Below are positions 20,523 through 44,593 of a stretch of DNA of 64,000 nt, in pieces; the first letter of the stretch is position 1, and every line of letters begins with the position of its first letter. The stretch is from assembly GCF_900230285.1 (NCBI RefSeq), contig NZ_OCNK01000003.1, positions 124,001-188,000 of the forward strand. Reading direction: 5' to 3'. The notes beneath the pieces were generated by a model. It saw nothing but the letters and a program-made list of their open reading frames with translations. It ran no database searches and was not told where the DNA came from. This stretch comes from Blastococcus haudaquaticus (GTDB lineage Bacteria > Actinomycetota > Actinomycetes > Mycobacteriales > Geodermatophilaceae). The translations under genes were made by a program, and so were the position numbers.

Positions 20523-21272
20523 GTGCACACCTTGGACGCGGACGTGCGCAGTCCGGAACCGCGACCGGCGCCCGTGGAGCGGTGGCGCACGGTCGCCCAG
20601 GTGGTCGGCGAGGCGCTCGTGACCGCGGGGCTCGTCGTCCTGCTGTTCGTCGTCTACGAGCTCCTCGTGACCGACGTGATCACCGACCGCCGCCAGGACG
20701 AGCTGTCCCAGCAGCTCCACGAGGACTGGGACCGGTCACCGACCGTGCTGCCCGTCCACGAGAGCAAGGTCGGCGACGCCTTCGGGGTGCTGCACATCCC
20801 GCGCCTCGGCCTGGACTACGAGCGCGTCGTCCTCGAGGGCACGCAGGAGCGGCAGCTCTCCCAGGGCCCCGGCCACTACGAGGGCACGGCCATGCCGGGC
20901 GAGCAGGGCAACGTCTCCTTCGCCGGCCACCGCGTCGGCAAGGGATCCCCGTTCCTCGAGCTCGACATCCTGCAGGCCGGGGACCCGATCGTCGTCGAGA
21001 CCTCCGACACCTGGTTCGTCTACCGGATGCTGGGCGACGCGGACCCCAGCGGCATCCCGGGACGGCAGATCGTGCGGCCCGAGGACATCGAGGTCATCTC
21101 GCCGACGCCGGGCGCCGCCGAGAACGCCCCGCCGACCGGGGCCTACCTGACCCTGACGACCTGCCACCCCCGCTACTCCGCGGAGCAGCGCATGATCATC
21201 CACGCGCGCCTGGACGCCACCGTCAGCAAGGCGGAGTCGCCCAACGGGCCCGCCGCCCTCAACGAGCGCTGA
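20523..21272 (+). CDS. Class E sortase
   Basis: 249 aa, GTG 20523 after GGGGAG. A single N-terminal membrane helix (about 28-48) precedes the catalytic barrel. His136 (SFAGHR), Cys214 (TLTTCHP) and Arg223 (YSAEQRM) form the transpeptidase triad. Class E sortases of high-GC actinobacteria recognise LAxTG and link proteins to lipid II; the upstream gene product ends in LAATG, so it is the obvious substrate. Confidence 0.92.
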   Translation: MHTLDADVRSPEPRPAPVERWRTVAQVVGEALVTAGLVVLLFVVYELLVTDVITDRRQDELSQQLHEDWDRSPTVLPVHESKVGDAFGVLHIPRLGLDYERVVLEGTQERQLSQGPGHYEGTAMPGEQGNVSFAGHRVGKGSPFLELDILQAGDPIVVETSDTWFVYRMLGDADPSGIPGRQIVRPEDIEVISPTPGAAENAPPTGAYLTLTTCHPRYSAEQRMIIHARLDATVSKAESPNGPAALNER

Positions 21273-33381: not shown

Positions 33382-33469
33382 GGAGGGCTCGCCTAGTGGC
33401 CGATGGCGGCGGTCTTGAAAACCGCTAGGAGTTCACAGCTCCTCGTGGGTTCGAATCCCACGCCCTCCG
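33382..33469 (+). tRNA. tRNA-Ser, anticodon TGA
   Basis: 88 nt. The acceptor stem GGAGGGC pairs with GCCCTCC (33462-33468), discriminator G at 33469; CCA is not encoded. Anticodon loop CTTGAAA gives anticodon TGA (33416-33418), reading UCA/UCG serine codons. The long variable arm (TAGGAGTTCACAGCTCCTCG) and the T-arm GTGGGTTCGAATCCCAC confirm a class II serine tRNA. Confidence 0.97.
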
Positions 33470-33787
33470 CACTGCTGGACCGACGGCGTACGCATCCTCC
33501 GGGCGACTGCCGATAGGGAGAGAGCGCCCGACACGCCGCGGCGCGGGGTCGCCGGGGATGACCGCACGCCGAAACGCCGTGTTCGCGCTGGTGGGCGGGC
33601 GGTTTGTCGACAAGACGGCGACCCGGGAGACGGGTCACCGACCCCCCGGGACGGCGCTCGCAACGATCCGGTGACGGGCCCCTCCCCGCCCCGTCGCAGC
33701 CGGCCGTCAGCCACCCCCGCCGACCTACCTTTCCCCTTGTCCGCGGCACTTCCCCGCCGCGGCGACGGGGTACTGAGGAGTCCGCGC
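33470..33787. other. Gene-free stretch after tRNA-Ser
   Basis: 318 bp without a gene. There is no direct repeat of the tRNA 3' end and no integrase, so no integrated element. ORFs here lack codon bias. The promoter of the following gene must be in its last part. Confidence 0.6.
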
Positions 33788-34624
33788 GTGGACATGGGTG
33801 TGACGGTGGGATGGCCGGCGACGGCGGTTCTGGGCTTCCTCGTTCTGACCGGTCTGGTGGTGGCTCTGGCCACCAGCTCGACCGCTCGCTACGAGTTCGA
33901 GCGCAACGGTGCGCGGGAGGCGCAGCGCTCGGCCGCGCAGCAGTCCGGCACGCACCCCGCCGGGAGCCGGCTCGGCAGCTGGGAGGCGGGTGCCACCGAG
34001 ACGCAGGCGCGCCCCCACGCCGTCGACGCCGCCGTCGACGTCGCCGTCCGTCCCGGCCCGGCGCCGGCGGGCCGCGGGCCCGGCTGGTGGCTGGTCGACG
34101 ACTCCGCGCAGGCCGTGGCCGGCCCGTTCGCCGACCGGATCGACGCCGACTGGGCGGCCCTGGCCGACGACCTGCCGGTGGTCGCGGTCTTCGGTGCCCG
34201 GCACGCCGACGGCACCGTGGCCCCGCGGCCCTCGCCGGAGGAGCGCGCCTGGCTGAGCGACCTCGGCGACCAGCTGGACCGGCTGCCCCGCGACTGGGAC
34301 GAGCTGCTGTCGGACACCGACCCGCTGACGACGCTGGTCGTCGAGGTCGCGGCGGCCCTGATCGAGGCCGGCCTGCCGCTGCACGACCCGCAGGGTTCCC
34401 CGGCGGGCGGCGTCTGCCTGATGCCCGACACCGCCTTCTGCGGAGTCGTCGTCAGCTGGCGCGGCCACGACCGGATGACGGTGCACCAGCTGCGGGGCGC
34501 CGCGGCCGACGCCACGATCCAGCAGTCGATGAACGCCGCGATCGCCGACGTCCTCGCCAACCTGGGTTTCGTCCTCGAGCCGGTGGGCGGGACGGGCGGG
34601 TCGCTCGTCACGGCCCTCGGCTGA
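33788..34624 (+). CDS. Membrane-anchored protein of unknown function
   Basis: 278 aa, GTG 33788 behind GAGGAG. One N-terminal membrane helix (about residues 8-28), then a charged, Ala-rich linker (30-90) and a globular domain (about 95-275) with GWWLVDDSAQAVAGPFADRIDADWAAL and CLMPDTAFCGVVVSWRGHDRM. I do not recognise the family. The PxFxxRIDADWAAL region resembles nothing I can name. It precedes the surface-glycan operon by 175 bp, in the same direction, and may belong with it. Confidence 0.75.
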   Translation: MDMGVTVGWPATAVLGFLVLTGLVVALATSSTARYEFERNGAREAQRSAAQQSGTHPAGSRLGSWEAGATETQARPHAVDAAVDVAVRPGPAPAGRGPGWWLVDDSAQAVAGPFADRIDADWAALADDLPVVAVFGARHADGTVAPRPSPEERAWLSDLGDQLDRLPRDWDELLSDTDPLTTLVVEVAAALIEAGLPLHDPQGSPAGGVCLMPDTAFCGVVVSWRGHDRMTVHQLRGAAADATIQQSMNAAIADVLANLGFVLEPVGGTGGSLVTALG

Positions 34625-34799
34625 CCCGCGCCGGACGACGGGGCACGACGTGACGGCCCAGCCGCCCGGGGGGTCGGACGCCCGATCCGGGCGTCGTTCC
34701 GGGACTTCGCGCTACAGGACTGCCGTCGACGTGCCGATCATCCGGCCGAGTGAGGGATGGGACGTCCTCCCAGAGCCGCTCAGTCGACAGGAAGAGACC
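34625..34799 (+). promoter_or_regulatory. Probable promoter region of the exosortase/glycan operon
   Basis: 175 bp between the unknown gene and the PIG-L gene. There is no hairpin after the upstream gene, so read-through is possible. I could not pick -35/-10 boxes with confidence. A GGAAGAG ribosome site closes the region. Confidence 0.35.
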
Positions 34800-35498
34800 A
34801 TGGCCGGGAAGTCGGTACTGGCAGTCGGGGCCCATCCCGACGACATCGAGCTGGGATGCGGCGCGTCGCTGCTGGCGCACGCCGCGGCCGGTGACGTCGT
34901 GACCATGCTCGTGATGACCGGCGGGGAGAGCGGTCCGGGAGCCGGCGAGCGGCACGCCGAGCAGCGCACCGCCGCCCGCACCCTCGGCGCCGCCCTGCGC
35001 TGGGGCGGTCTGCGCGACTGCGCCGTCGTCTCCGACACGACCACCATCGGCATCATCGAGGCGGTCGTCGCGGAGACGCAGGCCGACCTGGTCTACGTGC
35101 ACGCCCCCGAGGACAGCCACCAGGACCACCGGGCCACCGCCGCCGCCACCCTGTCGGCCGCCCGCCGCCTGTCCCGCGTCCTGCACTACCAGAGCCCCTC
35201 CACCCTGGCCTTCGCCCCGACGGTGTTCGTCGACATCACCGCCTTCCTCTCCGGCAAGCTCGCCGCCCTGGGCGCCCACGGCTCGCAGGTCGAGTTCTCC
35301 GCCATGGTGGAGCCGGACGCGGTCCAGGCGTCGGCGCGGCACTGGGGCGCCCAGGCCCGCATCGGCTACGCCGAGGCCTTCGCGCCCACCCGGATGGTCC
35401 TCGACCTCGCACCCGTCCCCGCCCGCCCCGCCGACCGCCGGCGGTCCGGGAGCCGGGTCGTGCCCGCGCCGCGTCGTCCGGCCGCCGCCGGCCGATGA
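34800..35498 (+). CDS. PIG-L family N-deacetylase
   Basis: 232 aa, ATG 34800 after AGGAAG. AHPDDIELGCG (His12, Asp14, Asp15) and HQDH (107-110) are the zinc and catalytic residues of LmbE/PIG-L deacetylases, which remove acetyl from GlcNAc-containing conjugates (MshB, BshB, GPI deacetylase). The C-terminal 25 residues are basic and disordered. It overlaps the glycosyltransferase gene by ATGA and so begins a six-gene overlapping operon. Confidence 0.92.
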   Translation: MAGKSVLAVGAHPDDIELGCGASLLAHAAAGDVVTMLVMTGGESGPGAGERHAEQRTAARTLGAALRWGGLRDCAVVSDTTTIGIIEAVVAETQADLVYVHAPEDSHQDHRATAAATLSAARRLSRVLHYQSPSTLAFAPTVFVDITAFLSGKLAALGAHGSQVEFSAMVEPDAVQASARHWGAQARIGYAEAFAPTRMVLDLAPVPARPADRRRSGSRVVPAPRRPAAAGR

Positions 35499-36901
35499 GC
35501 GCAGCCCCGGCGACCGCCGATCACCTCGCGGCGCCGACCGCACCCCCGGCCCACGAGAGCCGGCCCGACGGCCGCCGCCTCGTCCTGGTGGCCTACGTGG
35601 TCCTGCTCGCGGCGTCGCTGGCCGCCTTCGGGGTCGACCCGGTGCTCGGGTACATCGCCGGCGCGCTCAACATCGTCTTCGCCATCTACTTCTTCCGGCA
35701 CCTCGCCTTCGCGGTGTCGGCCGCCCGCTGGGCCGAGGCCGACCTGCTGGCCGCCGACGTCGACCTGGACGGGTACACCCCGTCGGTCGCGGTGCTGGTC
35801 GGCTGCAAGAACGAGGAACTCGTCGTCGACGGGATGCTGACCGCGCTGCTGGCGCTGGAGTACCCGGCGGACCGGCTCACCCTCGTCGTCGTGGACGACG
35901 GGTCCGACGACGGCACCGGCGCGGTCCTCGACGCCCGGGCGTCGGTCGAGCCGCGCCTGCGGGTGCTGCACCGCCCCCCGAACGCCGGTGGCGGCAAGTC
36001 CGGCGCGCTCAACGAGGCCCTGGCGACGATCGACGCCGAGGTCGTCCTGGTGTTCGACGCCGACCACGAACCGGAGCCGAACGCGCTGCGCCGCCTGGTC
36101 CGCCACTTCCGGGACCCGAGCGTCGGCGCGGTGATGGGCCGGTGCGTCATCCGCAACGGCAAGGAGTCGACGATGGCCACCACGGTCTTCGTCGACTTCC
36201 TCTCCGGTTACCTGGTCAACGAGTACGGCCGGCAGGCCCTGTTCGAGCTGCCCGCGTACGGCGGCGCGAACTGCGCGGTGCGGATGTCGACCCTCCGGGC
36301 CCTCGGGGGCTGGAACCTCGAGACGGTCACCGAGGACACCGACCTGACCCTCCGGGTGCTGCTCTCCGGCCAGCGCGTCCGCTACGACGTCTCGGCGATC
36401 GACTACGAGGAGGCGGTGGTCACCGCCCGGCGCTTCTGGACGCAGCGCTACCGCTGGGCCCGGGGCCACCAGAAGTGCTTCCGCGACTACTCGTGGCCGA
36501 TGCTGCGCTCACCGCACCTCACGGTCATGGAGAAGATCGAGTCGCTGCTGTTCCTGCTCGGCTACCACGTGCCGGTGCTCAGCGGCATCGGCGTGCTGCT
36601 GACCGTCCTGCGCGCGTTCGACATCGGTGACCAGCCGATCATCGGCCTGCTGCCGCTGTCCATGCTGCTGTTCGTCGGTCCGCTGGCCGAGCTGACCGTC
36701 GGGCTGCTCGTCGGCCGGGTGGAGCGGCGCGCTGCCTGGTCGTTGCTCGGCTTCCTGCCCGCGTTCGCGCTCTCCATCTGGATCACCACCCGCGCCTACC
36801 TCGACGGGATGCTGGGCCGGCCCTACACCTGGGTCAAGACCACCCGCTCGGGATCGACGTCCACGGTCGCCCCAGTCCTCGTGGCGGTGCAGAAGCGATG
36901 A
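35495..36901 (+). CDS. Membrane glycosyltransferase family 2
   Basis: 468 aa, ATG 35495. Two N-terminal helices (about 28-70), the GT-A domain with DDGSDD (134-139), FDAD (187-190), TED (279-281, catalytic base) and QRYRW (317-321, processive-type motif), then about four C-terminal helices. This layout is that of poly-GlcNAc/cellulose/hyaluronan-type synthases (PgaC-like) that polymerise a sugar and thread it across the membrane. The PIG-L gene before it could deacetylate the product. Confidence 0.93.
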   Translation: MSAAPATADHLAAPTAPPAHESRPDGRRLVLVAYVVLLAASLAAFGVDPVLGYIAGALNIVFAIYFFRHLAFAVSAARWAEADLLAADVDLDGYTPSVAVLVGCKNEELVVDGMLTALLALEYPADRLTLVVVDDGSDDGTGAVLDARASVEPRLRVLHRPPNAGGGKSGALNEALATIDAEVVLVFDADHEPEPNALRRLVRHFRDPSVGAVMGRCVIRNGKESTMATTVFVDFLSGYLVNEYGRQALFELPAYGGANCAVRMSTLRALGGWNLETVTEDTDLTLRVLLSGQRVRYDVSAIDYEEAVVTARRFWTQRYRWARGHQKCFRDYSWPMLRSPHLTVMEKIESLLFLLGYHVPVLSGIGVLLTVLRAFDIGDQPIIGLLPLSMLLFVGPLAELTVGLLVGRVERRAAWSLLGFLPAFALSIWITTRAYLDGMLGRPYTWVKTTRSGSTSTVAPVLVAVQKR

Positions 36902-38115
36902 CCGCCACCGTCGTCCCGCGGGAGATCCGCGGCCGCGTCGTGGTCCGCGGCGGTGCCCGGCGGCGCCTGGTGGTGCTCGTCGAGCTGATCGTCGCCGTTT
37001 CCATCTGCCTGGTCGGCTACCGCTACGGCGCCACGTGGTTCAAGGAGCACGAGGCCCGCTGGACCGTCGCGATCCTCCGGTTCTTCGGCGAGGAGCGCGT
37101 CTCTGCGGCGATCCCCGGCCACATCCTCATGTTCCGGGACGACGGCCAGATCCTCGACGGTGCGGTGACGACGTCCTGCTCGTCGATCCTGACCGTCATC
37201 GGGCTCACGGCCCTCACCGTCTCGGTGCTGCGCAAGCGGCGCTGGCACGCCGTCTACGGCCTGGCCGTCGGCCTCGTCGCGGTGGTGATCGCCAACGACC
37301 TGCGCCTGATCGCCTCGGCGCTGGCGGGCGTGCACTGGGGCCAGCCGGCGATGGTGCTCTTCCACGACTGGGTCGGCACGGTCTGGACCCTCGCGGCGAC
37401 CCTCATGGGTTTCCTGATCATGGTCTGGCTGACGCTGCCGATCTCGGAGCGGGCCGAGCAGGACGTGGCCGGCCGGCACACCGCCCGCCGGCCCAACAGC
37501 TGGGCGCGTCCGGGCCTGGGCTACCGGACCGAGGAGCAGGAGGCCGGCCCGAACGCCCGCCGCCGCACGATCACCGGGCTGATGCACCGCTACGTCCTGC
37601 CGAGCCGGGTGTCGCGCCGGCTGGCGGCGCGCCGCGAGGCCGGCCGCATCGACTACCGGATCGGTCACCTCCCGCCGGAGGAGCGGGCCGCGACGGTGCG
37701 GGCCCTGGTCGCCGACGGCCTGGGCGCCCACATCGCCTCGCTGCTGGCGGTCGCCACCTACGAGGAGGACGTCACCGTCCTCGACGCCCTGGCCGACGCG
37801 ATCGCCGCCCGTCAGTGGGAGCCGGTGACCAACGACCGCATCGCCGCGGTGCGCCTGTGGGCGCGCGGCTGGCTGTTCGGCCGCCGCAGCGGCCGCGCCG
37901 AAGCAGCGGCGGAGCACGCCGGGCTCGACGACGACACCCAGCAGTTCGCGGTCCCCCCGGACGACGACGGAACGCTGGTCCGGAGCGTGCGGGCCATCCC
38001 GCCCGTCCCCGTGCCCGCCCCCCGCCCCGTCCCGCGGCAGCCCGAGCGGCCGGCGCACCCCCGCAGCTTCGCCCGCCCCGCACCGGGCACCGCCCAGACC
38101 GAGGACGTCCGATGA
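36898..38115 (+). CDS. Exosortase/archaeosortase-like membrane protein with C-terminal extension
   Basis: 405 aa, ATG 36898 in an ATGA overlap. Residues 20-185 contain several helices and the triad spacing of exosortases: Cys94 in TTSCSSILTV, Arg136 in ANDLRLIAS and His156 in LFHDWVGTVW. Exosortases (EpsH family) cleave C-terminal sorting tails of secreted proteins and are normally encoded with polysaccharide genes, as here. Residues about 190-405 are a cytoplasmic-looking extension of unknown function, rich in Arg/Ala and ending in a proline-rich tail. The family is identified from motif and context; sequence similarity is distant. Confidence 0.75.
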   Translation: MTATVVPREIRGRVVVRGGARRRLVVLVELIVAVSICLVGYRYGATWFKEHEARWTVAILRFFGEERVSAAIPGHILMFRDDGQILDGAVTTSCSSILTVIGLTALTVSVLRKRRWHAVYGLAVGLVAVVIANDLRLIASALAGVHWGQPAMVLFHDWVGTVWTLAATLMGFLIMVWLTLPISERAEQDVAGRHTARRPNSWARPGLGYRTEEQEAGPNARRRTITGLMHRYVLPSRVSRRLAARREAGRIDYRIGHLPPEERAATVRALVADGLGAHIASLLAVATYEEDVTVLDALADAIAARQWEPVTNDRIAAVRLWARGWLFGRRSGRAEAAAEHAGLDDDTQQFAVPPDDDGTLVRSVRAIPPVPVPAPRPVPRQPERPAHPRSFARPAPGTAQTEDVR

Positions 38116-39185
38116 CCCGCATGCCCGTCCCGCTGCCGCCGGTGCCCCGGTCACCGCTCGACGCGCAGATCCCGTTCCATGCCCGGCCGTCCCGGGGCGC
38201 CGTCCTGGTGACCGGCTCCGGTGGTCCCGCGGGGATCGCGGTCATCCGTCGGCTCGTCGCCGTCGGGCACCGGGTCGTCGCGGCCGACGCCGACGGCGCG
38301 GCGGCCGGGGGAGCGCTGGCCCAGGCCGCCGTCACGGTGCCGACCGCCGACCACCCGCGGTTCCTGGACGCGCTGCTCGGTGCGGCCGCGGCCTACGGCG
38401 CGGACGCGCTGATCGGCACGGTCGCCGAGGAGCTGCCCGCGCTCACCGCCGGCGTCGACCGGCTGACCGCCGCCGGCGTGGCCACCTGGCTGCCCGGTCT
38501 CGCCGCGGTCGACGTCTGCTGCGACAAGGCGGCGTTCTCCACCCGGATGCGGGCCGCCGGCGTTCCCCACCCCCGGACGGCGACCCGGCCGGAGCAGGTC
38601 GCCCAGCTGCCCGGGCCGTGGATCGTGAAGCCGAACGCGGGGCGGGGCAGCCGCGGCCTGCAGCTGCTCGACAGCGGTCCGGACGTCGTCGCCGCCCTGG
38701 CCGCCGACCCGGGGCTGATCGCGCAGACCCGGCTGTCCGGCCGGGAGTTCACCGCCGACGCGCTGGTGGACCGCGACGGCCGGCTGGTGACCGTCGTCCC
38801 CCGCTGGCGGGACGAGACCAAGGCCGGGATCTCGGTCAAGGGGACGACCTTCTCCTCCGAGGCCGTCACCGACCTGGTCTCCGCAGCGCTCGCCGCGGTG
38901 CAGCTGACCGGGCCGGCGAACGTGCAGGGGTTCGTGGCCGACGACGGGACGGCGACGGTGGTCGAGATCAACCCGCGCTTCTCCGGCGGGCTGCCGCTCA
39001 CCCTCGCCGCCGGTGCCGACGTCGTCTCCGCCTACCTGGCCGGCATCCGCGACCCCCAGGCGGAGCTGCCCTTCCTCTGGTTCACCCCGGGCGTGCGGAT
39101 GAGCCGCTACTTCGCCGAGACCTACACCGGCCCCGACGGGTCGCCGGTCGCGGATCCGTCGTCCCCGCTCGCGGTCCTGGCGTGA
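38112..39185 (+). CDS. ATP-grasp ligase
   Basis: 357 aa, ATG 38112 in an ATGA overlap. Rossmann-like N-terminus (VLVTGSGGPAGIAVIRRL), central PWIVKPNAGRGSRGL (ATP lysine loop) and EINPRFSGGLPLTLAAGAD (Mg/ATP site, Glu and Asn). It resembles CarB-type ATP-grasp proteins of surface-polysaccharide loci, which join an amino or carboxyl group to a sugar or peptide with ATP. The exact substrates are unknown. Confidence 0.88.
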   Translation: MTRMPVPLPPVPRSPLDAQIPFHARPSRGAVLVTGSGGPAGIAVIRRLVAVGHRVVAADADGAAAGGALAQAAVTVPTADHPRFLDALLGAAAAYGADALIGTVAEELPALTAGVDRLTAAGVATWLPGLAAVDVCCDKAAFSTRMRAAGVPHPRTATRPEQVAQLPGPWIVKPNAGRGSRGLQLLDSGPDVVAALAADPGLIAQTRLSGREFTADALVDRDGRLVTVVPRWRDETKAGISVKGTTFSSEAVTDLVSAALAAVQLTGPANVQGFVADDGTATVVEINPRFSGGLPLTLAAGADVVSAYLAGIRDPQAELPFLWFTPGVRMSRYFAETYTGPDGSPVADPSSPLAVLA

Positions 39186-40330
39186 GCCGGGTCCGGCACG
39201 TCCTGGTGCCGTTCGGCACCCGCCCGGAGGTCGTGAAGCTCGCTCCGGTCGTGGCCGCGCTCCGCGCCGCCGGGCACCGGGTGACGGCCGTGGACACCGG
39301 TCAGCACACCGACCCGGCGCTGAGCTCCCAGCTGCAGGACGTGCTGGGGCTGACCCCCACGTACCGGTTCACGCTGCCCACCGAGCAGCCGGCCCGCACC
39401 GGTGCCCTGCACGCCGACGCGGCGGAGGCCCTGACCCGCTCCCGGCCCGACCTCGTGCTGGCGCTCGGCGACACCAACACCGTGCCCGCCTACGCGCTGG
39501 CCGCCCGCGCCGCCGGGGTGCCCTTCGGGCACGTGGAGGCCGGGCTCCGCAGCCTCAACCAGCGCAGCGTCGAGGAGGTCAACCGCCGGGTCGCCGGGGC
39601 GATCGCCCAGGTGCACTTCGCACCGACCGCCCGCGCCGCCGCGTTCCTCGCCGCCGAGGGCGTGGCCCCGGAGCGGGTCTTCGTCGTCGGCAACCCGGTC
39701 ATCGACACGCTCGTCCAGCGCGGGATCGCCCCCCGGCCGGTCGCGGACCGCGACGGCGTCCTGGTCACCGCGCACCGGCCGACCAACGTCGACGACCCCG
39801 CCCGGCTGGGTCGCCTGGTCGACGTGGTCCGCGGGCTGGCCGACCGGATCGGCCCGGTGACCTTCCCGGTGCACCCGCGGACGGCCCGGCGGCTGGAGGA
39901 GACCGGGCTCACCGGACGGCTCGTACACCCGAACGTCAGCGTGACGGAACCCATGGACTACGACACCCTGCTCGCGACCCTGGCCGGGTGCCGCCTGGCG
40001 GTCACCGACTCCGGCGGGATCCAGGAGGAGGCGGCGTTCCTCGGCGTTCCCGTCGTCGTCCTCCGGGCGTCGACGCCGCGCTGGGAGGGCGTCGAGGCCG
40101 GCACCACCACCCTGGCCGGGCTCGCCGACGACGACGCGCCCGCCGGGATCCTCGCGGCGGCGGAGGCGCACGCGACGCCGGAGGCCCAGGCCCGCGCCGC
40201 CGCGCTGCCCTGCCCGTACGGGGACGGCACGACCGGGGTGCGCGTCGCGGAGATCCTCGCCGATCCGCGCACCGACGCGCTGCTGGCCCTGACCGAGCCC
40301 GACTTCACCGACGGCCGGCTGCCGTGGTGA
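39182..40330 (+). CDS. wecB: UDP-N-acetylglucosamine 2-epimerase
   Basis: 382 aa, GTG 39182 in a GTGA overlap. GTRPEVVKLAPVV, QHTDPAL, GDTNTV, GHVEAGLRS, VEEVNRRVAG and TDSGGIQEEAAFLGVP are WecB/MnaA motifs, including the two catalytic acids near GDTNTV and HVEAGLRS. It makes UDP-ManNAc from UDP-GlcNAc, supplying the glycosyltransferase or a modified-glycan pathway in the same operon. Confidence 0.93.
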   Translation: MSRVRHVLVPFGTRPEVVKLAPVVAALRAAGHRVTAVDTGQHTDPALSSQLQDVLGLTPTYRFTLPTEQPARTGALHADAAEALTRSRPDLVLALGDTNTVPAYALAARAAGVPFGHVEAGLRSLNQRSVEEVNRRVAGAIAQVHFAPTARAAAFLAAEGVAPERVFVVGNPVIDTLVQRGIAPRPVADRDGVLVTAHRPTNVDDPARLGRLVDVVRGLADRIGPVTFPVHPRTARRLEETGLTGRLVHPNVSVTEPMDYDTLLATLAGCRLAVTDSGGIQEEAAFLGVPVVVLRASTPRWEGVEAGTTTLAGLADDDAPAGILAAAEAHATPEAQARAAALPCPYGDGTTGVRVAEILADPRTDALLALTEPDFTDGRLPW

Positions 40331-41073
40331 CGGACCCATCCGCACCGCCGTGGGACGGCGCGCCTCCGCTGGGCGTCGTCGTGGACCTCGACGACACGCT
40401 GTACCCCCAGGCCGAGTACCTCGCCGGTGCGGCCGTGGCGGTGGGCCGGGCGGCGACCCGGCTGGGCCTGGACGGCGACGCGGTCGCCGGCGCCCTCGCC
40501 GCCTGCCTGGCCGCGGGCTCCGACGCCGGCGGCACCATCGACCGGGCGTTGCTGGCCGTGGGCGTGCCGGAGACCGACCTGCCCGGTCTGGTGCCGCCGC
40601 TGGTGACGGCGTTCACCGGGCACGCGCCGGCCCGGCTCAGCCCCTATCCGGGCGTGGAGGCGGCGTTGCGGTCGCTGCTCGCCGTCGTGCCGGTGGGCTG
40701 CCTGACCGACGGCAACCCGGACATCCAGGCGGCCAAGTTCGCCGCGACCGGCCTGGAGATCCCGTTCGTCGTCGTCACCGACGCACTGGGCGGTCGTGCG
40801 ATGCGCAAGCCCGAGCCCGCGGGGTTGACCGCGCTGGCCGGGCGGATGGGCGTGCCGGCCGGACGGCTGCTGGTCATCGGCGACCGCCCCGGCAAGGACG
40901 TCGCCGTCGCGGCCGCGGTCGGGGCGCGGGCCGTCCGCATCCGCCAGGGCGAGTACGCGTCCGCGCCGGACGTCCCGCAGGCCTGGGCCGTCGTGGACTC
41001 CTTCCCGGCCGCGGCGGCACTGGCCCTGTCCGTGCTCCGGCGGCCGGCGGTGGCCGGTCACTCCTCCGGGTGA
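40327..41073 (+). CDS. HAD-superfamily hydrolase
   Basis: 248 aa, GTG 40327 overlapping the epimerase stop. DLDDTLYP (nucleophile and acid Asp), LTDGNPD, KPEPAG and GDRPGKDV are HAD motifs I-IV. It may dephosphorylate a sugar phosphate in this pathway, or act as a general phosphatase. It is the last gene of the overlapping operon; a gap of 89 bp follows before the secreted protein gene. Confidence 0.88.
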   Translation: MTDPSAPPWDGAPPLGVVVDLDDTLYPQAEYLAGAAVAVGRAATRLGLDGDAVAGALAACLAAGSDAGGTIDRALLAVGVPETDLPGLVPPLVTAFTGHAPARLSPYPGVEAALRSLLAVVPVGCLTDGNPDIQAAKFAATGLEIPFVVVTDALGGRAMRKPEPAGLTALAGRMGVPAGRLLVIGDRPGKDVAVAAAVGARAVRIRQGEYASAPDVPQAWAVVDSFPAAAALALSVLRRPAVAGHSSG

Positions 41074-41162
41074 CTCCGGTCGGCCGTCGCTACAGGAGCG
41101 CGCCGGAGGAGCCGATGGCGTTCCTACGGGTGGGACAGCCGCCCCTGAACAGAGGTGTGTCC

Positions 41163-41678
41163 ATGAGTGCGGAGCCGACCCGTCGTACGAGGTCCCTCGG
41201 GGTCCTCGTCGTCGTCTGCCTCGCCGTGCTGCTGTCGGCCGTCCCCGGCGTCGCCTCGGCGGCCACGGTGACCCCGTTCGTCGACTGCTACCGGGCGAAC
41301 GCCAACGGCACCATCACGGTGGTGCTCGGCTACACGAACCCCAACACGCGGAACACGGCCATCCCCCTCGGGACCCGGAACAGCATCACCCCGACCAAGT
41401 TCCAGGGCGCGCAGCCCACCGTCTTCAAGCCGGGGACCCAGCGCGGTGTCTTCTCCATCACGGCCACGCAGGCGGACATGTGGGCCAACCCCCGCTGGGT
41501 GCTCGACGGGAACACCCTGGACCAGTGGTCGGCCGGTTCGGTCGCACAGTGCTCGCCGTCCACGCCGCTCCCGGCCATCGGCAACGGGACGGGCCTCGCC
41601 GTCGCCCTGCTGGCCGGCGGAGCGTTCGGCGTCTTCTTCGTCCGCCGGCTGAGGCGCCGCGCGGCCGCCGCCGGCTGA
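41163..41678 (+). CDS. Small secreted protein with motif-TM-Arg C-terminal sorting tail
   Basis: 171 aa, ATG 41163 (ATG 41115 with a better GGAGGA site is possible, extending the N-region by 16 residues). Signal peptide to about residue 33 (VPGVASAA), then a compact domain with two cysteines (VDCYRANANGTITVVLGY...QPTVFKPGTQRG). The tail is LPAIG (136-140), a hydrophobic helix (about 145-160) and RRLRRR, the layout of exosortase/sortase substrates. With an exosortase-like gene upstream, it is a candidate sorted protein. Its sorting motif is unusual (LPAIGNG). Confidence 0.75.
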   Translation: MSAEPTRRTRSLGVLVVVCLAVLLSAVPGVASAATVTPFVDCYRANANGTITVVLGYTNPNTRNTAIPLGTRNSITPTKFQGAQPTVFKPGTQRGVFSITATQADMWANPRWVLDGNTLDQWSAGSVAQCSPSTPLPAIGNGTGLAVALLAGGAFGVFFVRRLRRRAAAAG

Positions 41679-41726
41679 CGGCCGCCCCCAGACCCGAGTT
41701 CCTCCTCGGAGCAGGACTCCTGCCTG

Positions 41727-41759
41727 CGTGGCCCGGTTCCCCCGTGGGACCGGGCCACG
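41727..41759 (+). terminator. 11-bp hairpin ending the glycan/sorting operon
   Basis: CGTGGCCCGGT (41727-41737) pairs exactly with ACCGGGCCACG (41749-41759), loop 11 nt, 49 bp past the secreted protein stop. Confidence 0.75.
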
Positions 41760-41801
41760 TGGCATGTCCGGGGGATCCCGCGGTGCGGCGTGCGCCCGGG
41801 G

Positions 41802-42050
41802 TCAGGCCTCCGGGGCGCCGTGGACGACGAGCTCGCCGCCGCGCGCGGCGAGGTCCTCACCGAGGCCGCGGATGACCTCGAGGCCGGCGTCGTCGGCGTC
41901 GCGGACGTCGCGCAGGTCGAGGACGATCCGGTGGTGGCCGCTGCCGTGCAGGGATTCCGCGGTGCCGCGCAGCAGGTCGGCGCCGAGCACGGTGAGGCGC
42001 CCGCTGGCGCGGATGGACCCGGTGCGCCGGTCGACGGTCTCGCTGAGCAT
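41802..42050 (-). CDS. STAS-domain protein (anti-sigma antagonist-like)
   Basis: 82 aa, ATG 42050 with TGATG overlap to the upstream STAS gene. IVLDLRDVRDADDAGLEVIRGLGEDL matches the STAS core, but the serine usually phosphorylated (in DSSGL) is replaced by Asp/Ala (DADDAGL). It may bind its partner constitutively. It forms an operon with the longer STAS protein. Confidence 0.85.
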   Translation of the reverse strand: MLSETVDRRTGSIRASGRLTVLGADLLRGTAESLHGSGHHRIVLDLRDVRDADDAGLEVIRGLGEDLAARGGELVVHGAPEA

Positions 42051-42403
42051 CAGGCGGCCCGGCCGCGGGCGGGCTCGAGCTCCAGGACCCGCCAGAGGCC
42101 CGTCCGGTGCAGCAGGTCCAGCGTCCGCCGGTTCGCCCCCCGCAGGACGACGCTCCCGCCACGGGCCCGGCAGGTGCGGTGGGCGGAGAGGAAGCTGGCC
42201 ACGGCCGGGCTGGCGAGCTGCTGCACCCCGCTCAGGTCGATGACGAGCTGACGTGCCCCGGCGAGCAGGGCGTCGTGCAGCAGCCAGCGGACGTCGGCCA
42301 GCCCCTCGGCGAGCAGGGCGTCGTCCAGCCGGATCGTCACCTCGTCCAGGTCGGCGTCCAGCCGGCTGTGCGCCGCGGCGCGCACGGCGGTGGCTCCTGT
42401 CAT
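42050..42403 (-). CDS. STAS-domain protein
   Basis: 117 aa, ATG 42403 behind GGAGGAG. LVIDLSGVQQLASPAVASFLSAHR is the anti-sigma antagonist core with serine at the usual site region. It could be a substrate of the SpoIIE-type phosphatase class found at 7.7 kb; no direct link is shown. It is divergent from the response-regulator gene across 130 bp. Confidence 0.85.
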   Translation of the reverse strand: MTGATAVRAAAHSRLDADLDEVTIRLDDALLAEGLADVRWLLHDALLAGARQLVIDLSGVQQLASPAVASFLSAHRTCRARGGSVVLRGANRRTLDLLHRTGLWRVLELEPARGRAA

Positions 42404-42533
42404 CCCGCATCTCCTCCCGGCTCGGTGCGTGCCCCGAGCCTGGTCCGCGGACATTGCGATCCGCCGGGACGCGGCTTTGCGATTGCATGACGGCTGCCGT
42501 GCGCCCGACGGGGCGGTGGCAGCATGGGTGGCG

Positions 42534-43238
42534 ATGGCGCTGCGACTGCTGGTGGTGGAGGACGACGACCACATCCGGACCGCGCTGCGGTGGGCGCTGG
42601 AGGACGAGGGCTACGACGTCGCCGAGGCCGGATCCGGCGAGGAGGCGTGCCAGGCCGTCGCGGTGAGCGCGCCCGACCTGATGATCGTGGACCTGATGCT
42701 CGGGTCGATGGACGGGTTCCAGGTGATCCGCCACGTCCGCCGGACCCTGGACCTGCCGATCATCGTGGTGAGCGCCCGCGCCGACACCAGCGACATCGAG
42801 ACCGCGCTCGACGCGGGGGCCGACGACTACGTGACCAAGCCGTTCGCGGTCAAGGAGATCACCGCGCGGCTGCGGGCGCTGCGCCGCCGGGTGTCGCCCG
42901 TCCCAACCGAGCCCGAGCCGGAGGCCGTCGTGCTGGAGCACGACCCGGTGGCGCCGCTGGTGCTGCGGGAGGCGAGCGGCACGGTGCACCGCGGTGACGA
43001 GCTGCTGCCCCTGACGCTGACGGAGTTCCGGCTGCTCTGCGAGCTGGCGGCGGCGCCAAGCCGGGTCTTCAGCCGGCAGGCGCTGCTCGAGCGGGTGTGG
43101 CAGCACGGCTTCTTCGGCGACGAGCGGCTCGTCGACGTGCACGTGCGGCGGCTGCGCACCAAGGTCGAGCGCGACCCCGGCGCGCCGCGCGTGGTGGTCA
43201 CCGTCCGCGGCCTGGGGTACCGGCTGGACCTCCAGTGA
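42534..43238 (+). CDS. OmpR-family response regulator
   Basis: 234 aa, ATG 42534 (upstream readings run into the noncoding gap). The receiver domain has the phospho-acceptor Asp53 (MIVDLMLG), Lys102 (VTKPFA) and Asp9-11. The C-terminal winged helix (about 135-232) has VDVHVRRLRTKVERDP and GLGYRL. It is translated as one unit with the kinase (GTGA overlap). Target genes are unknown. Confidence 0.94.
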   Translation: MALRLLVVEDDDHIRTALRWALEDEGYDVAEAGSGEEACQAVAVSAPDLMIVDLMLGSMDGFQVIRHVRRTLDLPIIVVSARADTSDIETALDAGADDYVTKPFAVKEITARLRALRRRVSPVPTEPEPEAVVLEHDPVAPLVLREASGTVHRGDELLPLTLTEFRLLCELAAAPSRVFSRQALLERVWQHGFFGDERLVDVHVRRLRTKVERDPGAPRVVVTVRGLGYRLDLQ

Positions 43239-44593
43239 GGAAGGGCCTGCGGGCGCGCATCGTGCTCGGGTACGCCGCCGGCACGCTGATCGTCTCGATC
43301 GTCCTGGTGACCGTGACGTTCCTGCTGGCCCGCAGCTACCTGCTCGACCAGCGCGAGGCGTCGCTGACCCGGCAGGCCTTCGCCGACGCCAACGTCCTGG
43401 ACAGCCGGCTGGCGACGGCGGGCACCGAGGTCGGCGACGTGCTCGACGAGTTGGTGCCGTCGGGCGGAGCCGACGTCGTCCTGCACAACGGCGACTCCTG
43501 GTACTCCTCCAGCCTGGACGTCGGCGCCCGGGACGTCCCCGCGGACCTGCGGGAACTGGTCGGGACCGAGCCCGCCGCGAGCGTCGTCGTGGAGACGGCG
43601 GACGGGCCCCGGCTCATCGTCGGGGTGACCCTGCGCAGCGCGGACGTGGAGTTCTACGAGCTGGCGCCGCTGACCGAGCTGCGGCAGGTGCTCAGCACGC
43701 TGGCCGCGGTGCTGGCCGCGGGGGCGCTGTCCGCGACCGCGGCGGGTGCGGCCTTCGGCGTGTGGGCCAGCCGCCGTGCCGTGCACCCCCTGGAGCAGGT
43801 CGCGGCGGCGGCGACCCGGATCGCCGGCGGGGAGCTGACCACCCGGCTGCCGGCCACCGACGACCCCGACCTGGTCGGGATCGTGGCCGGCTTCAACAGC
43901 ATGGTGGACGCCCTGGCGGCGCGGATCGAGCGGGACGCCCGGTTCGTCGGCGACGTGAGCCACGAGCTGCGCAGCCCCCTGACCACGCTGGTCACCAGCG
44001 TCGAGGTCCTCGGGACCCGGCGGGACGAGCTGTCCCCGCGGAGCCGTGAGGCGCTGGGGATGGTGGAGGGGGAGCTGGCCCGCTTCCGCCGCACCCTGGA
44101 CGACCTGCTGCAGCTCGCCCGCCTCGACGGGGCCGCCGTCCAGGAGTCCGCGCAGCCGGTGTGCCTCGCGGCCCTGGTGCGGCAGGTGCTCGCCGACAGC
44201 GACCGGCCGGCGGAGCTGCTCACGGTGCCCGGCGGCGGCGACACCACCGTCCGAGCGGACAAGACGAGCCTCGAGCGGGCCGTCCGCAACCTCCTGGACA
44301 ACGCCGACCGGCACGCCGGGGGACCGCGCGCCGTCCGCGTGGAGCGCAGGGACGGCGCCGTCGTGGTCACCGTGGACGACGCCGGACCGGGTGTCGCGAC
44401 GGCGGACCGCGAACGGATCTTCGAGCGGTTCGCCCGTGGGCCGCGGGCCGCCCGCCGCTCCCTGCCCGGCGCGGGCCTGGGCCTGGCGATCGTGGCGGAG
44501 ACCGCGACCCGGCACGGCGGGGCCGCGTGGTGCTCCGACGCCCCGGACGGCGGAGCCCGCTTCACCCTGTCGGTCCCGGCGGTGCCGCGATGA
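43235..44593 (+). CDS. Sensor histidine kinase
   Basis: 452 aa, GTG 43235. Two membrane helices (about 8-32 and 152-176) flank an extracytoplasmic sensor; HAMP about 178-230; phospho-acceptor His243 in DVSHELRSPLTT; N-box NLLDNADRHAG, G-boxes DDAGPGV and GAGLGLAIV. It phosphorylates the preceding response regulator. A GerMN lipoprotein follows, an arrangement like mtrA-mtrB-lpqB but with smaller, different proteins. Confidence 0.94.
   Translation: MRKGLRARIVLGYAAGTLIVSIVLVTVTFLLARSYLLDQREASLTRQAFADANVLDSRLATAGTEVGDVLDELVPSGGADVVLHNGDSWYSSSLDVGARDVPADLRELVGTEPAASVVVETADGPRLIVGVTLRSADVEFYELAPLTELRQVLSTLAAVLAAGALSATAAGAAFGVWASRRAVHPLEQVAAAATRIAGGELTTRLPATDDPDLVGIVAGFNSMVDALAARIERDARFVGDVSHELRSPLTTLVTSVEVLGTRRDELSPRSREALGMVEGELARFRRTLDDLLQLARLDGAAVQESAQPVCLAALVRQVLADSDRPAELLTVPGGGDTTVRADKTSLERAVRNLLDNADRHAGGPRAVRVERRDGAVVVTVDDAGPGVATADRERIFERFARGPRAARRSLPGAGLGLAIVAETATRHGGAAWCSDAPDGGARFTLSVPAVPR

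Follow-up and report, generated by a model that had tools for sequence, protein, structure and literature searches.

What does an exosortase attach to the cut end of its substrate? The question is raised by a locus of the soil actinobacterium Blastococcus haudaquaticus (contig NZ_OCNK01000003.1, positions 124,001 to 188,000; this whole stretch of 64,000 nucleotides is called the window here), in which a substrate, an exosortase and candidate acceptor-making enzymes are encoded by seven genes that form one unit. As the genome has just one substrate, the question becomes directly testable. The exosortase is of a conserved subtype that has no model of its own in NCBIfam release 20, and it lies inside a fixed glycan cassette. 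The reading that we favor, and to which we give an even chance, is that of a self-contained sorting cassette, in which the exosortase would cut a small secreted protein (SEC) and transfer it to an amine-bearing acceptor made by the five other enzymes. The features are as follows (window positions).

34800..35498, + strand: PIG-L family N-deacetylase, 232 amino acids (PF02585, HPDD motif)
35495..36901, + strand: membrane GT2 synthase, 468 amino acids (PF13641)
36898..38115, + strand: exosortase, 405 amino acids (TIGR04178 and PF09721 above cut-off; residue invariance)
38112..39185, + strand: ATP-grasp ligase, 357 amino acids (PF02655 and PF15632 above cut-off)
39182..40330, + strand: WecB non-hydrolysing UDP-GlcNAc 2-epimerase, 382 amino acids (TIGR00236)
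40327..41073, + strand: HAD-family phosphatase-like hydrolase, 248 amino acids (PF00702)
41163..41678, + strand: SEC, secreted beta-rich protein, 171 amino acids (signal peptide, two invariant cysteines, tail)
41568..41675, + strand: C-terminal sorting tail of SEC, residues 136-171 (column entropy; tail profile)
about 41726..41761, + strand: strong hairpin after SEC, possible terminator (fold energy; no T-run)

Five 4-base overlaps (ATGA at 35495, 36898, and 38112; GTGA at 39182 and 40327) join the first six genes, and 89 bases separate the HAD and SEC genes. The initial annotation had described six overlapping genes of these families within 34800-41678, followed by a secreted protein with a motif-helix-arginine tail and a hairpin; coordinates, joins and the Pfam and NCBIfam matches agree with this description. 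The interpretation given there largely stands as well: of the three outcomes that it named as refuting (no significant exosortase match, a variable triad in orthologues, neighbors that do not recur elsewhere), none was observed. For PIG-L, the longest open reading frame begins at 34650, yet a composition-guided call agrees with the ATG at 34800. The hairpin belongs to a 115-nt stretch with a folding energy of -68.1 kcal/mol (z -3.34).

The product of 36898-38115 passes the broad exosortase signature TIGR04178 (33.2 bits, cut-off 23) as well as PF09721 (28.9 bits, cut-off 25.7), bearing out the exosortase assignment of the initial annotation. Two of three distant homologues tested (L137 and L128; L and G numbers denote our loci and genomes) miss the PF09721 cut-off, and both pass TIGR04178. 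Among the named NCBIfam subtypes matched at E up to 1, every subtype cut-off was missed by the window exosortase. The best is XrtS (NF033767; 45.9 bits vs. 145, with five homologues at 22.1 to 39.5 bits), the classical eight-helix EpsH model (TIGR02602) gives 13.4 bits against a cut-off of 105.55, and neither XrtP nor XrtG is listed for it. We class the system as a variant of exosortase systems, distinct from XrtP, XrtG, XrtS and EpsH proper.

Residues Cys94, Asn133, Arg136, His156, and Gly160 are invariant in an alignment of 20 family sequences and in one of 30 homologues that adds Micromonosporaceae and metagenome-assembled genomes (MAGs), so that the triad Cys94/Arg136/His156, already picked out from the single sequence, is conserved in orthologues. 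Of 56 loci, 54 show Cys-Arg-His by pattern and one more, L139, by eye, which makes 55; the sole locus without it is a broken MAG stretch (L052). The structural model of the exosortase (mean predicted local distance difference test, pLDDT, 78.2; below 50 at 192-216) has approximately four membrane helices in its core, followed by a helical region to about residue 343. Helix prediction agrees with a triad at the outer membrane face, and the predicted topology places a conserved region (about 182-330) after the core in the cytosol, followed by a proline-rich tail. Of the 66 columns that are invariant in the 30-sequence alignment, 47 fall in this post-core part of the protein.

SEC has a signal peptide, a beta-rich domain and two invariant cysteines (42 and 130), and its model shows ten-residue pLDDT means above 90 from 41 to 120. 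The window SEC is above no Pfam family cut-off, and in a scan of 39 SEC proteins each Pfam family was matched by at most 2 members. Its tail consists of LPAIGNGTG, a helix and RRLRRR, with the general form P-x-x-[GA]-N-G-x-G, helix, Arg. Mean entropy is 0.74 bits at motif columns 136-144 vs. 2.13 bits for columns 34-129 (39 sequences). Among the copies inspected, L035 and L057 each have an additional broken, tail-less copy, one L042 copy carries GNS and the copy of a Frankiales MAG (L112) has a different motif; all remaining copies carry P-x-x-[GA]-N-G.

The tail is inherited together with the exosortase. Among 112 Geodermatophilaceae genomes, it is found in 36 of the 37 exosortase-positive genomes and in none of the other 75; the exception, G037, is a MAG whose contig stops within the cassette, and a 38th match, in G080, is a different exosortase and is not counted. 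The Fisher value for this distribution (1.3e-28) disregards the kinship of the genomes and is not taken as a probability. A whole-SEC profile matches strongly in 36 of the 112 genomes; in G003 and G106 the match is confined to a short N-terminal segment and reaches no better than E 0.004-0.009. With a profile of the tail alone, 56 places score E 6.1e-8 or better; they belong to the same 36 genomes, each of which has between one and three, and the window genome has just one full-length tail match. Further tail-profile matches listed (E 5.8e-4 and weaker) begin at profile position 10 at least and hence lack the motif, with the exception of G072 (positions 2-24, E 0.03). Ten of the 56 are remote, being on a different contig from the cassette or 39 kb or more away from it; they come from nine genomes, all exosortase-positive, and in G055 the sole SEC copy is of this kind. 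Both the co-occurrence and these remote copies with the same tail support the proposal that SEC is the exosortase substrate.

In distant relatives, SEC is replaced by another neighbor with a motif-helix-basic end, assigned as substrate solely on position and tail shape. In L136 it is a relative of SEC that ends in PVSVVGS-helix-RRSR; in L139, a choice-of-anchor P protein (131.3 bits vs. cut-off 27); and in L140, a 753-residue protein. The neighbor in L138 (L138:13843-15495, - strand) is a purple acid phosphatase that carries a Tat-type signal and has a helix and a basic tail at its C-terminus, a possible alternative substrate beside a shuffled cassette. What the system conserves seems to be the tail rather than the protein body.

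Of the 56 loci, a set that contains no near-identical pairs and was mostly chosen by exosortase similarity, 52 carry all six core genes inside 8 kb; the other four (L043, L051, L052, and L139) are cut by contig ends. When neighbors were clustered for 49 loci, the cassette genes clustered in 42-49 of them vs. 14 for the next neighbor, a co-occurrence well above what chance would give and of the kind that the initial annotation had named as support; exosortase and ATP-grasp fall into one cluster because of gene fusions. Geodermatophilaceae loci run GT2-exosortase-ATP-grasp-WecB-HAD, then SEC, and carry PIG-L either upstream (as in the window) or after SEC; exceptions are L058, without SEC at the locus, and L043, L051, and L052, which end early. 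Micromonosporaceae and several MAGs show the order SEC-PIG-L-GT2-exosortase-ATP-grasp-WecB-HAD. The cassette persists in distant actinobacteria at an exosortase identity of about 26-36% (depending on the query), and L138 (genome G364) retains all six genes in shuffled order with a divergent exosortase. A search of 396 phylum genomes with the ATP-grasp part of L136 gave four that matched at E up to 1e-50: the window genome (G000), the genomes of L139 and L140, whose cassettes were recovered blind to the exosortase, and G1066 (42% match, no cassette).

The distribution is patchy. Apart from the 37 of 112 family genomes, exosortase matches were obtained in 28 of 298 genomes of the order sample (several being weak matches to other exosortases), in 13 of 200 Micromonosporaceae genomes (12 strong and the divergent G364) and in 3 of 394 genomes of the class sample, G000 among them. 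The weak exosortase matches in G182, G234, and G080 were checked and are not this cassette.

The region after the exosortase core is termed HEAT-like here because its counterparts in L136 (E 6.5e-5) and L128 (2.7e-4) weakly match HEAT repeats (PF13646, under cut-off). It lies in the exosortase frame in 45 of the 56 loci, and exosortase, HEAT-like domain and ATP-grasp form one open frame in L035, L037, and L066. In L112, L136, L137, and L139, the exosortase is core only (174-178 residues), and the ATP-grasp protein carries the domain as its N-terminal part, with a hydrophobic stretch ahead of it; in L140 the domain is a separate gene on the opposite strand. The pattern search placed only L112 and L137 in the ATP-grasp group; L136, L139, and L140 were assigned by BLAST and reading frames. 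No HEAT-like domain was found in L138. In L050 (an isolate) and L052 (a MAG) the frames of the domain are disrupted, and frame disruption in the exosortase region of these two may reflect decay or sequencing error. That the domain changes places between two genes speaks for exosortase and ATP-grasp being physical partners at the membrane. The moving domain is a concrete hint that a soluble enzyme may work physically with an exosortase; our search for precedents was not exhaustive.

The remaining enzymes were assigned to families by profile and motif. PIG-L matches PF02585 (78.9 bits, cut-off 28.2) with HPDD at residue 12; its nearest NCBIfam model is the bacillithiol deacetylase BshB1, under cut-off (88 of 182.5 bits), and the mycothiol equivalog MshB (23.7 of 224.35 bits) was likewise rejected. 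GT2 matches PF13641 (87.2 bits, cut-off 27) and contains DDG, DADH, TED, and QRYRW, which we take to be the motifs of processive synthases. It falls short of the models for the PgaC poly-GlcNAc synthase (TIGR03937; 123.8 bits vs. cut-off 422.3) and the XrtP-associated glycosyltransferase (NF053846; 104.3 bits vs. cut-off 520), and the XrtG-associated glycosyltransferase model is under cut-off as well (61.1 bits). The ATP-grasp protein passes PF02655 (53.9 bits, cut-off 23.2) and PF15632, and orthologues of at least 68% identity are present in 37 of the 112 family genomes, which are the exosortase-positive ones. WecB passes TIGR00236 (255.3 bits, cut-off 210.15) and shows the motifs GDT, EAGLR, EEVNR, and HRPTN; HAD passes PF00702 (50.3 bits, cut-off 26.4), with DLDDT at 20 and GDRPGKD at 185.

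Mycothiol and bacillithiol are built by a glycosyltransferase, a phosphatase, a PIG-L deacetylase and an ATP-dependent ligase. The cassette encodes a similar set, with BshB1 as the closest model of its PIG-L, which makes an amide on a deacetylated hexosamine the natural guess for the acceptor. The likeness lies in the same chemical steps on a hexosamine; the cassette differs in having a membrane GT2, an ATP-grasp protein in place of MshC/BshC and an exosortase, and is not a thiol pathway.

For the cleavage, the transfer, the identity of the sugars, the roles of ATP-grasp and HAD and the docking between proteins, we infer the following course of events. SEC would be exported and then held in the membrane by its C-terminal helix, and the exosortase would cleave it at P-x-x-G-N-G via Cys94, forming a thioester with the new C-terminus. 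WecB would provide UDP-ManNAc, and GT2 would make a lipid-linked or extruded amino-sugar glycan; PIG-L would take off an N-acetyl group and thereby expose an amine, the ATP-grasp enzyme, docked at the exosortase by the HEAT-like domain, would join an amino acid or other carboxylate to this amine, and HAD would take off a phosphate. Finally, the exosortase would hand SEC to the acceptor amine, leaving SEC covalently attached to the glycan. A glycan with ManNAc or GlcNAc and the cleavage of the tail would meet in one product. A precedent for an amine acceptor is a speculative model, in the part of PMC7157517 cited here, in which an amine lipid attacks the ArtA thioester.

Several observations weigh against the sorting-cassette reading. 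Since the exosortase was the bait for most loci, its own presence in 56 of 56 is by construction. The cytosolic enzymes are on the opposite side of the membrane from the predicted triad, and a flipped intermediate would therefore be needed; a flippase is not among the conserved neighbors of the 49 loci. GT2 resembles a processive synthase and may make a free polymer. Comparison of the models with PDB folds gave no convincing match for SEC (best E 0.27) or the exosortase (0.41), and no tailed protein was found near the L137 cassette. The weakly similar exosortases of L067, L129, and L130 have GT2 nearby and WecB in two cases, with no PIG-L, ATP-grasp or HAD match near the exosortase. The PIG-L/ATP-grasp pair, mostly with GT2, can in turn stand without an exosortase: in Blastococcus group g2, a response-regulator/PIG-L fusion adjoins an ATP-grasp gene (about 37-40% identical) in five of five loci (L131-L135), with GT2 in four. 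Four of these five genomes are without the exosortase, and the fifth, G002, has both sets. Five loci of this kind indicate that the glycan part can stand alone. The g2 loci also contain a PHP-like protein (five of five; the one tested scores 21 bits, under the cut-off of 26.4) and a camelysin-like gene nearby (one tested), and may represent a glycan module linked to a matrix-protein locus (e.g., L131:8096-12608).

The independence of the PIG-L/ATP-grasp/GT2 set also fits the rival explanation that survives best, which we judge unlikely: the exosortase cuts SEC and then either sets it free or links it to an ordinary amine lipid of the membrane, and the glycan is a separate, co-expressed surface polymer. 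An ethanolamine lipid is proposed as the ArtA acceptor in the cited part of PMC7157517, and the part of PMC1569441 cited here reports that PEP-CTERM exosortases sit in exopolysaccharide loci, yet that disruption of EpsH left methanolan production unaffected. A separate polymer is harder to reconcile with the signs of direct cooperation, namely the 3 of 56 loci where ATP-grasp protein and exosortase are fused and the 4 others where the swapping domain sits on the ATP-grasp protein, or with a gene set that stays together even when shuffled (L138).

We consider it improbable that the glycan genes serve some other kind of glycosylation, of SEC or of the cell wall, and that the exosortase frees the finished glycoprotein from the membrane. 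The same gene content and a small, secreted, beta-rich SEC would suit this explanation; neither an oligosaccharyltransferase nor a flippase is among the conserved neighbors, however, and the processive-type motifs of GT2 do not suggest protein glycosylation. A plain exopolysaccharide operon with an exosortase homologue that has lost its peptidase function would agree with the faster divergence of the exosortase relative to its neighbors in distant branches, but it is very unlikely given the retained Cys-Arg-His pattern and a tail motif far more conserved than the SEC body.

Least credible of all is that a sortase processes LP-x-x-G-N-G as an odd LPXTG signal: although the tail resembles sortase signals (NF041528, 16.9 bits, under the cut-off of 30), has T at column 143 in 22 of 39 copies and thus a T-G pair after the motif in about half, and the window genome contains six sortase matches, the tail does not preserve the L-P-x-T-G spacing, and sortase was found in every one of the 108 family genomes (of 112) that were searched for it, while the tail is absent from all 75 exosortase-less genomes. 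With a sortase in every genome searched, mere sortase presence does not explain the tail pattern. The profile of the enzyme does not track the tail (108/108 vs. 36/112), which makes a sortase unlikely as the SEC processing enzyme and leaves room for a special sortase subtype. One sortase domain lies inside the window, at 20790-21212 (+ strand; PF04203, E 1.2e-29), about 14 kb upstream of the cassette.

With the sorting cassette as the preferred reading, the closest known relatives can be compared. EpsH, in the part of PMC1569441 cited here, is defined by its Cys, N-x-x-R, and H-x-x-x-G motifs and has at least eight helices, a C-x-G active site and a median of eight substrates; other fusions of exosortases, to EpsI-like and CAAX-protease-like domains, are on record there. 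The window system shares with this PEP-CTERM/EpsH type an exosortase with invariant Cys, N-x-x-R, and H-x-x-x-G, a link to polysaccharide genes and motif-helix-basic substrates. It differs from EpsH as described in that part of the paper in having about four helices, C-S-S, an added cytosolic domain, one to three tails per genome and a Gram-positive-type host. The likeness to ArtA with PssA/PssD, as far as given in PMC7157517, is that of an exosortase relative with enzymes proposed to make an amine-bearing membrane acceptor; the proposed acceptor here would instead be a deacetylated, ATP-grasp-modified glycan, whose genes adjoin the exosortase in 52 complete loci.

XrtP and XrtG (NF012139, NF053846, TIGR03110, and TIGR03111) also comprise a small exosortase beside a PgaC-like GT2, but for NF053846 the window GT2 reaches only 104 of 520 bits, and the exosortase has neither of the two among its listed matches. 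In the literature matches listed, XrtG was unmentioned, and XrtP and XrtS occurred only in papers on other subjects. A separate arrangement is seen in L130 (L130:5317-16229), where an exosortase (68.8 of 200 bits for XrtP) lies beside a GT2 above the NF053846 cut-off (586 of 520 bits); the locus also encodes WecB and two surface proteins with DUF11 repeats, one of which has a tail weakly like that of sortase substrates. L067 (L067:1-3158) is similar to L130, with an exosortase of 54.5 bits for XrtP and a GT2 of 469 bits for NF053846.

In eukaryotic glycosylphosphatidylinositol (GPI) anchoring, a glycan is deacetylated by a PIG-L-type enzyme, and a protein whose tail has been cleaved is passed by a cysteine enzyme to an anchor amine. 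By analogy only, the cassette would likewise combine PIG-L-type deacetylation with a tail-cleaved protein passed to an amine by a cysteine enzyme. Tentatively, and at clearly less than even chance, the cassette might be a convergent bacterial counterpart, in which an exosortase-ATP-grasp assembly would transamidate the protein, once its tail is cleaved, onto a glycan that is made by the same operon, deacetylated by PIG-L and aminoacylated. If so, a single cassette would encode substrate, transamidase and acceptor. It differs from GPI anchoring in that the cassette gives no evidence of phosphatidylinositol and no sign of a GPI-type transamidase. None of the titles and abstract openings listed in a literature search describes the gene set, which leaves room for an earlier description.

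Flanking genes were considered as additional parts of the cassette. The best candidate, at 33857-34624, was left out because it is near just 14 of the 49 loci. Directly downstream (41802-44593), a STAS/anti-sigma-like pair (- strand) and a response regulator with a kinase (+ strand) were recognized by eye; these genes are not among the neighbors that recur with the cassette. The sole Rfam match at gathering score in the whole window is a tRNA, a tRNA-Ser (TGA) at 33382-33470 (+ strand) upstream of the cassette, which, given the patchy distribution, is a possible insertion landmark.

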